DNA from: Gammaproteobacteria bacterium
GTDB lineage: Bacteria; Pseudomonadota; Gammaproteobacteria; Enterobacterales; Alteromonadaceae
Assembly (NCBI GenBank): GCA_018825965.1
Contig: JAHKAA010000009.1
Coordinates: 54,072 to 118,071 of the forward strand
Length of the DNA stretch: 64,000 nt
Direction of reading: 5' to 3'
This document shows, piece after piece, positions 32,246 to 37,539 of this stretch (its first letter is position 1; each line of letters opens with the position of its first letter). The notes beneath the pieces are model-generated. The model was not told where the DNA came from and searched no databases. It saw only the letters and a program-made list of their open reading frames with translations. The translations under genes and the position numbers were made by a program.

Positions 32246-33064
32246 CTATGTGGAAGAATTGGAAAATTGCGACATCTTACGTTTTTTATACTGACCAGGG
32301 GTTTGCCCTGTGATACGGACAAAATGCTGATGCATATGGGCCTGATCATAAAAACCAGCTTGTTGCGCCACACTGGCTAAGTCAATAAGCGGATTGTTAC
32401 TGATTAAAAATCTCGCCAGCTTTACTTTAAACAACAGCTGTAATTGCGCCGGTGATAACCCTGTTTCCAGCTTAAACAAACGTTCAAATTGTCTGCGGCT
32501 TTTTGGCAACTGGCTGTACAAGTGCTGCAAATCGGCGGCTGGTTGTTTTAACAACGTCAGGCTTTTTTGCACCAAAGTTGTGTTCGACACCCTCTGTTCG
32601 GCCAGATGCAATAACCAGCATTCAATAGCCGTAAGCCGGGCTGGCAGATTGGGGCTATTCGCCAGTTGATCCAATAACCAATCCAGACCGACCAGATCAC
32701 ACAGGCGAATATCCAAAGCTGCTTTCGTCAGTTCTGCAGGACTAATACCCAATAACTGAAAAGCTCCAGTGGCAAGGAAACGCACACTCAGCAGATGCTG
32801 GCCTGGTAAAAATGAACTTTGGTTTAATTGCTGGCTGTAGTGAATATAGGCCGAAGGTAGCTGGTTTGGCAGGAATTCAAAAGTCAGATTACTGCCGCCA
32901 TCCGGATATTGTGGATAAGGTTGGCTGCTATCCACTTGCTCCGGAACCTGTATGGTCCAGTATTGCTGCACCCAGGGTGTTAGCTGCTCAGATGGCAGAT
33001 GCTGGCTAAAACCCAAAGCAGTCAGGCTGCTATTGGGCTGAAAATACCACTCTTGGGTGCTCAT
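32246..33064 (-). CDS. AraC family transcriptional regulator
   Basis: 272 residues. An N-terminal ligand-binding-like domain (LTPWVQQYWTIQVPE, PDGGSNLTFEF) is followed by two helix-turn-helix units at ~180-265 (KSRRQFERLFKLETGLSPAQ, VAQQAGFYDQAHMHQHFVRITGQTPGQYKK). The ATG at 33064 is preferred because GGA precedes it; the frame runs on to 33103, which would overlap the DUF4920 gene. Neighbouring AhpD-like gene is a likely target. Confidence 0.88.
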   Translation of the reverse strand: MSTQEWYFQPNSSLTALGFSQHLPSEQLTPWVQQYWTIQVPEQVDSSQPYPQYPDGGSNLTFEFLPNQLPSAYIHYSQQLNQSSFLPGQHLLSVRFLATGAFQLLGISPAELTKAALDIRLCDLVGLDWLLDQLANSPNLPARLTAIECWLLHLAEQRVSNTTLVQKSLTLLKQPAADLQHLYSQLPKSRRQFERLFKLETGLSPAQLQLLFKVKLARFLISNNPLIDLASVAQQAGFYDQAHMHQHFVRITGQTPGQYKKRKMSQFSNSST

Positions 33065-33086
33065 GCCCGTTCCGCGCGACCAGATT

Positions 33087-33551
33087 TTAATCTGCAATCT
33101 CAACAGCGACAGGCACTAACTGATACAAAGTGATGGCTTCAGTCACGCTTTGCGGATCAAAGGCTTCACCTTGTTCTTCGGCTTTATGCGCCAGATATTC
33201 GCGGGTTGATTCTAAATCCATTTTGATAGGGTCCAGCTTACCGCTGGCATAAGCAGTTTTACCTTTGGCGCTAACCGGAAACACCATATCGCCGTCTTTT
33301 ACTTTAATACGAAAAGTAGGTTGATTTTTCCCAGCAGACAACTGCATCCAGCAGCCTTTTTTCTGGCAGACCGCTTCTACAGTGCCTTTCACCGTCACTT
33401 GTTGCTGCAGGTAACTTTGTGGTTTCGCCAGAATATCAGCGACCTCAACCAGCTTGGTTTTATCGACAACACCACCAAAAGTGCTGGCTGAAGCGTTAAA
33501 AGCAGCGAAAGTCAGTGCTGTAGTCAGCAGTATTTGTTTAACTAATTTCAT
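33087..33551 (-). CDS. DUF4920 family exported protein
   Basis: 154 residues with signal peptide ending SASA. The core has GTVEAVCQKKGCWMQL with C62 and C67, the DUF4920 hallmark, followed by IKVKDGDMVFPVSAKG. The C-x4-C pair with nearby residues suggests a metal site, and the fold is likely an OB-type barrel. Function unknown. It is 22 bases upstream of the AraC gene, in the same direction. Confidence 0.87.
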   Translation of the reverse strand: MKLVKQILLTTALTFAAFNASASTFGGVVDKTKLVEVADILAKPQSYLQQQVTVKGTVEAVCQKKGCWMQLSAGKNQPTFRIKVKDGDMVFPVSAKGKTAYASGKLDPIKMDLESTREYLAHKAEEQGEAFDPQSVTEAITLYQLVPVAVEIAD

Positions 33552-33615: not shown

Positions 33616-34515
33616 TCAGCCCGGTGTATAAGGGCCATATCCCGGCAATAGTTTGAGCAAAGCCCGGCTTATCATGGCTGGGAACACAGACAAATGATCT
33701 TCGTCGGCAATAATCTGGCTTTGAATGCCCAAGCCCGGGTAACTGCGGCTTTTCAGCGTTTTCTCAAACAGCAGCGTATCGTCCACTATGCTTACTCTTC
33801 TTGCATAACGTGAACCTGGTTTTATCTGTTCATACTCAGCGGCATACAGCTGTACTCTGGCTTTTAAATCTTTGTGGTTGGTTGCGTACTGTTGCTCCAG
33901 CTTGAACATCATTTTGTCGTCAAACCACAAAGACGGGCTGCTTAAAATATAAGTATCAAAAGTATCGGGTTGGGTCAGCAGTATTTGTGCGCCTAACAAG
34001 CCACCATAAGAATGACCAACAAAAAGCTTACGTTTTGGGTCAACCTGATAGTTGTTTAATACAAAAGGGATCACTTGTTGTCGCAGGTAATCGGCATATA
34101 AAGCTGCGCCACCATAAGCTTTGGCTGTTAAATTTTTGCTCCGTTTTTTGCCATTCGCCAGAATATTGGTTGGGGTGAAATCCAGGCTGCGACTATCGGT
34201 TGGGTTATCTTCTTTGGCGTAGGACAAACCTACAATCACAAAGTCTTCAATATTCTGACCACCAGCGCCTAAACGGTTGCGGATACTACGGATCAGCGGA
34301 AAAGCGTAATTGGCATCAGACACAAAAAGTACCGGAAACTTTTTCTCTGTTTTGCCATAGGAAGGCGGTAGTTCAACCCAGACTTCGTAATGGCGGCCAT
34401 TGCTTTGAGCTGGCAACTGATGCACTTGGGTATTGGGTAATTCCCAGGCCGGAAATTGTTCTTCTGCCACTAAGTTCAGGCTGAATAAGGCACACAGAAC
34501 TATAAATAATCTCAT
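33616..34515 (-). CDS. Exported alpha/beta-hydrolase, esterase D / siderophore-esterase type
   Basis: 299 residues with signal peptide (LFIVLCALFSLNLVA). Strand and helix pattern of an esterase-D-like fold with VLFVSDANYAFP, the nucleophile elbow GHSYGG and a late histidine in DEDHLSVFP. Relatives hydrolyse formylglutathione or trilactone siderophores; the exported form favours the latter or a cell-wall ester. It follows the class C serine hydrolase with a gap of 16 bases, so it belongs to the bla-like operon. Confidence 0.82.
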   Translation of the reverse strand: MRLFIVLCALFSLNLVAEEQFPAWELPNTQVHQLPAQSNGRHYEVWVELPPSYGKTEKKFPVLFVSDANYAFPLIRSIRNRLGAGGQNIEDFVIVGLSYAKEDNPTDSRSLDFTPTNILANGKKRSKNLTAKAYGGAALYADYLRQQVIPFVLNNYQVDPKRKLFVGHSYGGLLGAQILLTQPDTFDTYILSSPSLWFDDKMMFKLEQQYATNHKDLKARVQLYAAEYEQIKPGSRYARRVSIVDDTLLFEKTLKSRSYPGLGIQSQIIADEDHLSVFPAMISRALLKLLPGYGPYTPG

Positions 34516-34531: not shown

Positions 34532-35659
34532 TTAAGAGCTTAACACCTGTTGCCAGAACCATTTGGCTAAATCACCTGTGATATCGGCTTCGGCATTGGT
34601 CAGTAGCACTAAACCTATATCCTGCTCTGGTGAATAAGCAATGTAAGGCCGGAAACCATCTACAACACCGCCGTGATAAAACAGTTTATTTTCATCGTAT
34701 TGGATCACACGCCAGCCACGGCCATACCAACTGGAGACTTGTTTGAACTGCTGCCAGACCGGCCAGCGAGGTTTGCCGCGTAATTTCACCATAGGTTGTT
34801 GCAACTGAGCTAAAGCTTCAGCGCTGAATACGCCGGGTTTATGCCCCAACATGGCTATCAGATATTTGGCCATATCATTGACGCTGGCATTGACACCGGC
34901 TGCCGGATTAACCCAATAAAAGTTCGGGTCTATTTTGACAGGCCGCCAGCCTTTGCCGCCTCTTTTATGTGGCATGGCTTTGTTTTTAGTGGCTAAAAAA
35001 GGAGCATAACCCACAGAAGCTGTATTCATTTGCAGGGGGTTAAAAATACGTTCCGGCAATAATTCTTCGTAACTTTGACCAGTACCACGGTTGAGCACCT
35101 GATCCAGTAAAGAAAACACTATGTTTTGGTAGCTGTAACAAGTGCCGGGTTTGCAGCCCGGAGTCAGCTCCCGAAATTTAGGTAAAATTTGTGCCGGGGT
35201 TTGTTTGTCTTCCAGCATATTTTCATACGCATGAGGCATTAACCCGGTGCTTTGGCTCAGCACCTGATCCACTTTGATCTGGCGGGTTGCAGCTGCTGTT
35301 TTTAATTTAAACTCAGGCACATAGTTCATCAGTGGCAAATCTAAATTTACTTTGCCTTGCTGGGCAGCCAATACGCTGATGCCACCGGTAAAGGTTTTCG
35401 ACACCGAGGCCAGCCTGAATACGGTGTCGGCATCAATCTTTTCCGGTTTGCCCATAGCCCGTACACCATAACTGCCGGTGGCAATAATCTGGTTGCCACG
35501 TACTACGGCATAAGCGCCGCCCGGCACTTTGGCTTTGTTTAGCTGCACACGGAATTGCAAATCCAGCCCTTGCAGCAGTTCGGTTTGTTGCACCTGTGCT
35601 GAGGTTGAAAAAACGCAGAGCAAGAGGCCGTATAAGGTGGTTTTTATAAATAATTTCAT
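34532..35659 (-). CDS. Class C beta-lactamase-like serine hydrolase
   Basis: 375 residues with signal peptide (TTLYGLLLCVFSTSA). It has the three serine-penicillin-recognising motifs: S85-V-S-K88, Y177-Q-N179 and a YHGG element near 325 in place of the KTG box. This is the beta-lactamase / D-alanyl-peptidase / esterase superfamily. Whether it cleaves beta-lactams cannot be told; its place behind a BlaI repressor and BlaR1-like protease makes that a fair hypothesis. The gap to the BlaR1-like gene is 12 bases. Confidence 0.88.
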   Translation of the reverse strand: MKLFIKTTLYGLLLCVFSTSAQVQQTELLQGLDLQFRVQLNKAKVPGGAYAVVRGNQIIATGSYGVRAMGKPEKIDADTVFRLASVSKTFTGGISVLAAQQGKVNLDLPLMNYVPEFKLKTAAATRQIKVDQVLSQSTGLMPHAYENMLEDKQTPAQILPKFRELTPGCKPGTCYSYQNIVFSLLDQVLNRGTGQSYEELLPERIFNPLQMNTASVGYAPFLATKNKAMPHKRGGKGWRPVKIDPNFYWVNPAAGVNASVNDMAKYLIAMLGHKPGVFSAEALAQLQQPMVKLRGKPRWPVWQQFKQVSSWYGRGWRVIQYDENKLFYHGGVVDGFRPYIAYSPEQDIGLVLLTNAEADITGDLAKWFWQQVLSS

Positions 35660-35671
35660 CAGGTTGCCTTT

Positions 35672-37054
35672 CTACAACTTTAAGTAAGGAGTTGGATCTT
35701 GCTGCTTGCCGTCGACCAATAATTCAAAATGTAAATGTGGCCCTGTCACCCGGCCTGTGGCCCCAACTTTGCCTATAGGCTGACCTGGTTCTACCGTCTG
35801 GCCTGCTTTGATATAAAAATCATCCAGATGAGCGTACAAGGTTTGATAACCGTGACCATGGTCGATCAACACAGTTTTGCCATATCTGTCATGTAAGCTT
35901 TTGTCGTCGGCAATCAGTACTTTGCCTTTTTGTGCTGCTTTTACTGTCGCACCAGGTTTGGCGCCAAAATCCAGCCCTTGATGTGGACGGTTCTGGCGAA
36001 ACGGATGTTTTACACCATAAAAAGAGGTGATAGGTACTTTGCCTACCGGCAATAGCCATTCTTCAGGTGGCGAGCTGAAGCTAAGCTGAGCGCAGCCCAC
36101 ATTCAGCAGCAAAGCTGTGCTGCATAAAACCGCTGTAGCGCGCCATTTTTGCCAGAAAGACAGCACAGGAGCCGGCTGAAATAACTGCTGCAAACGTTGT
36201 TGGTAAAAACTTTGGCTTGCTTGGTTTTGAATAAAACCCGGCATCAACGCTGGCATTTGTTGTGCCTGACTTTGTTTTAAGCTGCAAAGCAGAGTTTGAC
36301 CATACAACAGCGCTTGTTCGGGCTGCTTTTTAAGTACAGCTTTGTCCACCGCCAACTCCATACTGCGGATAAAGGCCTGCTCAATCAGTCGTAATACAGG
36401 GTTAAACCAACACAAAGCCACCAGAATCCTCAGTAGTAACAGCTGCTGTGGGTCGCGTCGTTGCAAATGAACCAGTTCGTGTTCTATCAATAACTGGCGC
36501 TGCTGTTCAGACATAGTCTCTACATAAGCAGGTAACACCAATACCATATGCTTCCAGCCGCTAATAAAAGGTGAGACAGCAACTTGGGTTTGGCGAATTT
36601 CAAAGCTGTGAGGTAAGAGTTTCAGCTGTGCCTGGCTTAGTAATGACGCTGTATCTACCTGTTCTGCCTGAGCGATCAGTTGCTGTACCTGCTGCCATTG
36701 TTTCACTAAGCGCCATAGCAGTAACAGGCTGACAATACATACAAAACTCAAGCTGATATACCAATAAAGCGCGGTATTCGCAGCTGGTTCCACTAAGCCG
36801 GGGTGTTGCGGTTGAGCAGCGAAAGCCTGCACTGAAGTCACAGTGTCTTGCAGCAGTACAGACGGAATACTCCAGTCTTGATAAAGCTCTGGCATAGGCA
36901 GCAGAGGTAAAAAACTTAAAATAAGCAGGCTCCAATACAAAGCAGGCCAATGCTGTAAAGCGCTGAATTTTTTCAGTAAAGGCTGAGTAGAAAACCAAAG
37001 CAATCCGGACCACAGGCTACAAAGCAGTAGAGAAAACAACAATTGTTCTGCCAT
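35672..37054 (-). CDS. BlaR1/MecR1-type M56 protease fused to an M23 (LytM) peptidase domain
   Basis: 460 residues. About four membrane helices carry an M56 zinc-protease with H192-E193-x-x-H196 (IEHELVHLQRRD) and a third-ligand candidate E233 (SMELAVDKAV). A fourth hydrophobic segment near 306-320 ends LNVGC. After it, outside the membrane, comes an M23 domain with the metal ligands H358 and D362 (HQGLDFG), H409 (YAHLD) and H440-x-H442 (TGPHLHFEL). In BlaR1 the external domain is a penicillin-binding sensor; here it is replaced by a cell-wall endopeptidase fold. It starts one base after the repressor stop, so the two are coupled. Confidence 0.88.
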   Translation of the reverse strand: MAEQLLFSLLLCSLWSGLLWFSTQPLLKKFSALQHWPALYWSLLILSFLPLLPMPELYQDWSIPSVLLQDTVTSVQAFAAQPQHPGLVEPAANTALYWYISLSFVCIVSLLLLWRLVKQWQQVQQLIAQAEQVDTASLLSQAQLKLLPHSFEIRQTQVAVSPFISGWKHMVLVLPAYVETMSEQQRQLLIEHELVHLQRRDPQQLLLLRILVALCWFNPVLRLIEQAFIRSMELAVDKAVLKKQPEQALLYGQTLLCSLKQSQAQQMPALMPGFIQNQASQSFYQQRLQQLFQPAPVLSFWQKWRATAVLCSTALLLNVGCAQLSFSSPPEEWLLPVGKVPITSFYGVKHPFRQNRPHQGLDFGAKPGATVKAAQKGKVLIADDKSLHDRYGKTVLIDHGHGYQTLYAHLDDFYIKAGQTVEPGQPIGKVGATGRVTGPHLHFELLVDGKQQDPTPYLKL

Positions 37055-37055
37055 C

Positions 37056-37454
37056 TTAAGCCCCGCCGTTTTTGCTTGGTGCTGATTGCTGCTGTGCTAA
37101 ATCGGCCAGCAGTTTTTCTAAGTCAGCTATTTCATCCGCATTCACCAGCTTGCTGTTGGCAAACATAGCTACAGGCAAAGGACCATTCAGTTCAAATACC
37201 CTGCGGCCAAAATCTTGTGCAAAAGCCGCCAGCGTAGGCATTTTATCCCGTAGCGCTCTGTAGCTGTTTTTATTGCCCAGAGTTTCACAAGCGACAAAAC
37301 CTTTTTCACCCATCCGCTCCAGAGTTTTACGGGTAGAGGAATAACCCCAGCCCAACACAGACTCCAGCCCGTCATGCAATTCACGAGCAGTAAGAGGTTG
37401 TTTTAACCAGAGTAATTTAAGAATTTCCAGCTCAGGAGCAGTAGGTTGGTGCAT
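37056..37454 (-). CDS. BlaI/MecI family repressor
   Basis: 132 residues. The winged helix PTAPELEILKLLWLKQPLTARELHDGL, GWGYSSTRKTLERMGEKGFV matches BlaI/MecI/CopY repressors, which are cleaved by the partner M56 protease. The start at 37454 places the conserved N-terminus correctly; a TTG at 37478 with AGGGG upstream is possible. Two matching palindromes lie at 37490-37505 and 37524-37539, so it probably represses its own operon. Confidence 0.88.
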   Translation of the reverse strand: MHQPTAPELEILKLLWLKQPLTARELHDGLESVLGWGYSSTRKTLERMGEKGFVACETLGNKNSYRALRDKMPTLAAFAQDFGRRVFELNGPLPVAMFANSKLVNADEIADLEKLLADLAQQQSAPSKNGGA

Positions 37455-37489
37455 AAAAATAAGTGCGTTAATCAACAATGCCCCTAGAG

Positions 37490-37505
37490 TGCGACAGATG
37501 TCACA
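37490..37505. promoter_or_regulatory. Putative BlaI-type operator 1
   Basis: TGCGACAGATGTCACA is an imperfect palindrome of the form TGCGACA-N2-TGTCACA. It lies 36 bases upstream of the repressor ATG, and shares its half-site with the copy at 37524. Confidence 0.6.
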
Positions 37506-37523
37506 TTGAGGTCAAGCAAAATC

Positions 37524-37539
37524 TGCGACATTTGTCGCG
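37524..37539. promoter_or_regulatory. Putative BlaI-type operator 2
   Basis: TGCGACATTTGTCGCG is a near-perfect palindrome of the form TGCGACA-N2-TGTCGC. It is centred 34 bases from operator 1, roughly three helical turns, so two dimers could bind on one face. Confidence 0.65.

Follow-up and report, generated by a model that had tools for sequence, protein, structure and literature searches.

A 64,000-nucleotide stretch of DNA (the window) from a gammaproteobacterium of the family Alteromonadaceae, with a genome of 4.65 Mb and Rheinheimera as its closest named relatives, carries on its minus strand a gene in which a BlaR1-like M56 protease is joined to a predicted outer domain of the M23 (LytM) cell-wall peptidase type, directly behind a gene for a BlaI-family repressor. 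The reading that we regard as the probable one, with moderate confidence, is that the M23 domain meets a change in the periplasmic wall, that the M56 protease becomes active and BlaI is cut beside Phe98, and that the operon together with an unlinked esterase gene is released; the role of this regulon would most likely be cell-wall remodelling or repair. What can be read directly from the sequences is the architecture of the fusion, the catalytic positions of both its halves, the adjacent blaI gene, a tandem operator that co-occurs with the fusion in the genus and also precedes separate esterase genes, and neighbouring hydrolases that differ between lineages. The features concerned, in window coordinates, are the following.

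37525..37538, no strand assigned: distal operator dyad GCGACAAATGTCGC, predicted BlaI site, kept upstream of blaI in relatives
37510..37515, minus strand: -35-like TTGACC between the dyads, promoter element predicted from the sequence
37491..37504, no strand assigned: proximal operator dyad GTGACATCTGTCGC, in the presumed -35/-10 spacer, kept upstream of blaI in relatives
37056..37457, minus strand: blaI repressor gene (PF03965), counted from the ATG at 37457
35672..37054, minus strand: M56-M23 fusion, 460 residues, BlaR1-like protease with M23 outer domain (Pfam and predicted model)
36251..36982, minus strand: M56 domain, residues 25-268, with H192, E193, H196, D201, E233, D237 and Y251, followed by F274 and R287 (Pfam and alignment)
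36086..36139, minus strand: fourth membrane helix, residues 306-323, with a signal-peptidase-like end G-C-A322/Q323 (homologue alignment)
35693..35986, minus strand: M23 (LytM) domain, residues 357-454, with H358, D362, H409, H440 and H442 (Pfam and model)

The interval under study ends at 37539, one base beyond the distal dyad, a feature absent from the original prediction. Both halves of the fusion were recognized by Pfam, Peptidase_M56 over residues 25-268 with 96.3 bits (cut-off 31) and Peptidase_M23 over residues 357-454 with 113.7 bits (cut-off 28.7), and the architecture is not a product of chance, since it is shared by relatives down to 30% identity. The original prediction, made from this DNA alone, had pointed to an HExxH motif at residues 192-196 and to the five M23 residues listed above; all of them are present, and the M23 residues are kept in 119 to 120 of the 120 best homologues over which residue conservation was counted. 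Loss of the M23 ligands in homologues had been named beforehand as a point that would count against sensing; no such loss was seen, the ligands being conserved. In the profile alignment the M56 half contains the HExxH and ExxxD gluzincin motifs and the equivalents of BlaR1 Asp210, Tyr261 and Arg294, and it retains the catalytic residues given in the BlaR1 cryo-EM paper. F274 aligns with Phe284, the P1' residue of BlaR1 autocleavage, and this position is occupied by Phe, Leu or Val in 116 of the 120 homologues. The membrane part had been described as BlaR1-like with four helices, and the predicted model agrees, with long helices at residues 2-29, 37-47, 95-129 and 300-324 and a BlaR1-like fold across residues 5-285. 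The outer domain has the HxxxD and HxH motifs and the further histidine of M23 peptidases, and in the model comparison its M23 (LytM) fold matched M23 enzymes; it stands where a penicillin-binding (SxxK) sensor domain, which neither Pfam nor NCBIfam found in the fusion, would be expected. The proposal that this protein senses the cell wall thus keeps its structural part, namely the BlaR1-type catalytic residues and the conserved M23 residues.

The blaI gene is separated from the fusion by one base, and its product contains the Penicillinase_R domain (72.9 bits, cut-off 22.6) and matches MecI with an E value of 0.0004. In the open reading frame (ORF) list the gene begins further upstream, at a TTG (37478), and one further locus (L082) has a TTG in this place as well; in most relatives an ATG is found at the position of 37457, the start used here, or close to it. 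BlaI is reported to be cleaved between Asn101 and an almost invariant Phe102 (PMC9834060). F98 of the present repressor aligns with Phe102 of MecI, and the phenylalanine is kept in 22 of 22 aligned loci and in all 38 loci inspected. These 38 loci, which include our own, came from successive searches (13 + 17 + 8, with L007-L010 left out as duplicates and with G340 and G347, where the family matches cover the M23 part only, outside the set), and a BlaI/MecI-family repressor gene adjoins the fusion in every one of them.

Upstream of blaI, one fixed pattern found at least one dyad within 180 bp in 37 of the 38 loci and two dyads, 32-34 bp apart, in 29, against zero dyads in a control of 50 dinucleotide shuffles per locus. 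The dyads are the predicted sites of BlaI binding. By eye, a TTG-containing stretch lies between the two dyads in most of the 29 loci. By this pattern eight loci have a single dyad: L046-L051, which belong to other families, and also L099 and L102, whose second dyad looks degenerate by eye. In L052, the one locus with none, CTACATTTGTAG takes the place of the usual dyad.

The same predicted dyad pair stands upstream of the operon and of a separate esterase gene. Within the genus, the pair pattern was found at 24 places in 19 of 22 genomes (the reversed control matched in 4), and the fusion is present in the same 19. Nineteen of these places are at blaI, and each of the remaining five (G000, G300, G311, G298 and G301) precedes a PF00756 esterase gene at a distance of 36 to about 190 bp, with a TTGAC box that by eye is directed towards the esterase in all five; the family was assigned by Pfam for two of these esterases and by BLAST likeness for the other three. 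In three of the five cases the gene encodes a second esterase that shares 32-33% identity with that of the operon. In the two others, G298 and G301, identity to the operon esterase is 74-75%, and the neighbour survey did not find this esterase in the operon of these two genomes. The fusion is missing from G305, where a related esterase (67%) and class C gene (56%) are present; neither an operator pair nor, in the stretches inspected, a site with up to three mismatches was found in this genome, and in this single comparison the operator tracks the regulator and not the esterase. Two distant families have a more widely spaced dyad pair (45-47 bp) before an M1 peptidase gene; in L192 this dyad pair lies between blaI-fusion and an M1-esterase gene pair, and in L134 it is unlinked. 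A search for exact dyads matched 13 of 15 genomes (all except G330 and G406), against 5 of 15 for the reversed control, and two of its places away from the fusion, on contig C11 of G343 (among unrelated genes) and contig C61 of G300, may be due to chance. With up to one mismatch, the genome of this DNA gave 23 forward and 25 reverse matches, fewer than the reversed control (31 and 32), and single inexact matches were therefore discounted.

On the evidence of the ORF list and Pfam, three more genes follow the fusion in the order class C hydrolase, esterase and DUF4920 protein, with same-strand gaps of 12 bp between fusion and class C gene and 16 bp between class C gene and esterase:

34532..35659, minus strand: class C-family serine hydrolase (PF00144)
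33616..34515, minus strand: IroE-like esterase (PF00756)
33087..33551, minus strand: DUF4920 protein (PF16267), possible operon tail after a 64 bp gap

The layout of an M56 protease with BlaI, then a class C protein and an esterase, had been correctly predicted. The esterase had been called exported; the protein is IroE-like, with GHSYG at residue 167, and its N-terminus is signal-peptide-like by eye. The motifs of the class C protein are S85-VSK, Y177-QN and H329-GG, so that SxxK and YxN are present and the third motif, at 329-331, is HGG and not the KTG of beta-lactamases. With this motif and a score of 113.9, far short of the 415 that NCBIfam requires for class C, the protein gives no indication of a beta-lactam response. 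Most genomes of the genus have another class C paralogue at a different place, with 42-49% identity, for instance at G000:C41:88036-89109, and the pair-pattern search of the genus gave no operator pair there. Behind the DUF4920 gene, positions 32246-33103 hold what by eye is an AraC-type regulator-like gene, and a similar protein follows DUF4920 in L088.

Neighbouring genes were surveyed in 41 loci (the 38 and three later ones), with families assigned by Pfam for ten members and some more and otherwise by tblastn; earlier gene calls had missed some neighbours, such as the class C gene of L091, and the counts given here are those of the survey. The class C gene is directly downstream of the fusion in 19 of 41 loci, all 19 of them those of the genus. 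Elsewhere the first neighbour is an esterase (four loci, in two of which an MltD-like SLT-LysM protein comes next), an MltD-like protein (two), another M23 protein (five) or a polysaccharide deacetylase (two); divergent hydrolase genes are present in two loci (L192 and L049), and Csd3-type enzymes also occur among the hydrolases that adjoin the pair in other lineages. The suggestion that hydrolases are released by this system gains in part from these neighbours and from the single operator type that precedes both the operon and the separate esterase genes.

According to PMC9834060, binding of a ligand outside the cell shifts the inner protease of BlaR1 towards cutting BlaI. In the fusion, the input would be wall material encountered by the M23 outer domain, be it substrate, product or their loss; this input would activate the membrane M56 protease, whose site would cut BlaI next to F98, and loss of BlaI would free the operon and the unlinked esterase gene with the same predicted operator. 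Several points weigh against this sequence of events. Induction, BlaI cleavage and activity of the M23 domain on peptidoglycan are steps that we infer. The distant locus L194 has leucine at the position of the cleavage phenylalanine; in seven of the 41 loci no member of the hydrolase families searched for adjoins the fusion, and 19 of the 34 loci with hydrolase neighbours belong to one genus. The unlinked dyads of G298 and G301 are also upstream of a divergent gene. Order-wide, the pair pattern matched 8 of 295 genomes, fewer than the reversed control (12 of 295); six of the eight match at the blaI of a fusion (G000 with a second place), and the matches in the other two, G006 and G059, where no fusion was found, are not clean dyads and are apparently chance. 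The pair pattern alone is thus unspecific at this level, and its position carries the weight. A PF00144 gene also stands directly behind an M56-ankyrin pair of the same genome (L178:3341-4501), so that a class C gene next to M56 is not specific for the M23 type. The IroE-like family is not known to act on peptidoglycan. Finally, instead of being a sensor, the M23 domain may equally well be a working enzyme: the positions of H409 and H440 are catalytic in M23 enzymes and do not bind zinc, and in the 120 homologues they are as invariant as the zinc ligands, a conservation that would point to M23 activity.

These invariant histidines suit an alternative that is considerably less probable than the wall-sensing reading and is the strongest of its competitors, in which the M23 domain acts as effector: the cell would produce it, as a murein endopeptidase tethered to the membrane, along with the partner hydrolases, and repression would be lifted by another input, either at the first outer loop or through peptidoglycan fragments bound by BlaI. 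A peptidoglycan dipeptide is reported to bind BlaI/MecI directly in Bacillus licheniformis (PMC3305447). Likewise, G305 has a free M23 protein with a lipobox-like start encoded 43 bp before its class C gene, so that M23 and class C genes can be linked without M56. However, in the predicted model the M23 domain sits at the sensor position of BlaR1, and the other M56 proteins of this genome have unrelated modules there (TonB-C, ankyrin and TPR-like), as would be the case with interchangeable inputs. In a tree of this short domain, in which one fusion (L194) is mislabelled, the free M23 proteins of L196, L044 and L096 are among the nearest stand-alone relatives of the M23 domain of the fusion and are a possible source of it. 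That of L196 (L196:2415-3458), whose genome has no fusion, begins with a lipobox-like stretch, has a long tail rich in Lys, Thr and Ala and is encoded directly before a class C gene; in L044 and L096 the genes of its relatives (54-63% identical) are found some 4 kb upstream of the fusion.

A further possibility, which we rate as improbable, is that cleavage by signal peptidase behind the last helix of the fusion releases an active M23 endopeptidase into the periplasm, so that the receptor becomes a delivered wall enzyme. It is suggested by BlaR1 itself, which the signal peptidase SpsB is reported to cleave between Gly331 and Gln332, behind the last helix (PMC9834060), and by a signal-peptidase-like site in the fusion. 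A loose signal-peptidase rule says little, since it finds a site in 115 of 120 homologues against 88.8 in shuffled tails, with 24 of 113 at the second helix. A strict rule with Ala at -1, picked after a first look and applied to related sequences, finds a site in 76 of the 120 homologues, where shuffled tails give 25.5 and the second helix 0 of 113; in a thinned set the figures are 29 of 46 against 11.0 and 0 of 45. This is support for the site, not proof. The claim is limited to a signal-peptidase-like site in the same linker as that of BlaR1. The profile alignment had at first looked compatible with A322/Q323 as the exact homologue of the BlaR1 site, but mapping back of the profile places that site about five residues later, where the alignment is poor, and this homology was dropped. 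The last helix of the fusion ends in LLLNVGC, which resembles a lipoprotein site; as the cysteine is missing from most of the 120 homologues, a lipobox was not kept as a general feature either. If shedding is true, turnover of a BlaR1-type receptor has become regulated enzyme delivery, and one polypeptide would sense the wall, free a hydrolase regulon and then cut the wall.

It is distinctly unlikely that the regulon serves scavenging or competition, with exported hydrolases that digest foreign walls or esters and an M23 domain that reports such material in place of self damage. The operator before esterases and, in two distant loci, M1 peptidases would fit this; the MltD-type and Csd3-type enzymes that adjoin the pair in other lineages usually act on the cell's own wall. 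Least probable of all is an ordinary beta-lactam response in which the class C product would be a beta-lactamase induced through the pair when penicillins are present, since the BlaR1/BlaI half and the PF00144 gene directly downstream, which recall it, are set against the missing penicillin-binding domain, the HGG motif and low score of the class C protein, and 21 of 41 loci with no class C gene beside the fusion.

The genome has three further BlaI-M56 pairs, whose outer parts are TPR-like and below the Pfam cut-off (L175, contig C70), TonB-C (L177, C48) and ankyrin (L178, C20), and two weaker M56 matches in contig C56 that are below the cut-off. By eye, the dyads before their blaI genes are CTACAnnTGTAG for the TPR-like, TTACAnnTGTAA for the TonB and ACTAA...TTAGT for the ankyrin pair, and the GCGAC-type dyad was not found before the own blaI of any of the three, which are perhaps insulated parallel channels. 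The second esterase adjoins the TPR-like pair, yet has the M23-type operator. After the M56-TonB pair (L177:2910-4701) there are, by eye, sigma-factor-like and FecR-like genes and a secretin/TonB short-domain protein.

As far as is known, research on BlaR1-type receptors has dealt chiefly with their sensing of beta-lactams, most of all in staphylococci. With BlaR1/BlaI and MecR1/MecI of these bacteria the present system shares an M56 gluzincin with the same active-site positions, an adjacent BlaI-family repressor with a P1' Phe, upstream dyads and a signal-peptidase-like site after the last membrane helix; it differs in its M23 outer domain, in its operator TGCGACAnnTGTCGCA and in its presumed targets, which are other hydrolases. 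The fold and all catalytic residues are those of M23 murein endopeptidases (Pgp3, ShyA, MepM and LytM), from which the fusion differs in being joined to a signalling protease. EnvC/NlpD-type regulators likewise use a LytM fold in a regulatory setting; these are catalytically inactive, whereas the fusion keeps the catalytic residues. The B. licheniformis dipeptide also ties wall turnover to BlaI, but there, as PMC3305447 has it, the target of the fragment is BlaI itself, in the cytoplasm. That similar fusions might be annotated in databases was confirmed by the NCBI product name M23/M56 family metallopeptidase, which is a name only, covers the same architecture and is borne by proteins of named relatives; we file the system as a variant of the BlaR1/BlaI kind whose architecture NCBI has already named. 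The fusion was found in at least 4 of 369 genomes across the class, with at most four candidates scored per genome, so that the count is a lower bound; at most five were scored per genome in the search of the order. PMC9662197 counts M56 among the domains seldom joined to M23 and reports no demonstrated part in peptidoglycan cleavage. No description of an M56-M23 mechanism, operator or regulon was found in the literature, which was searched by titles and openings of abstracts and mostly outside subscription journals.

The locus offers a concrete and easily tested Gram-negative case in which the BlaR1 protease chassis is joined to a cell-wall enzyme, with an operator and a regulon. The further pairs with other outer modules and other dyads point to a wider, little-explored signalling family. 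If the wall-sensing reading is true, bacteria could gauge their own peptidoglycan across the membrane through proteolysis of a repressor.
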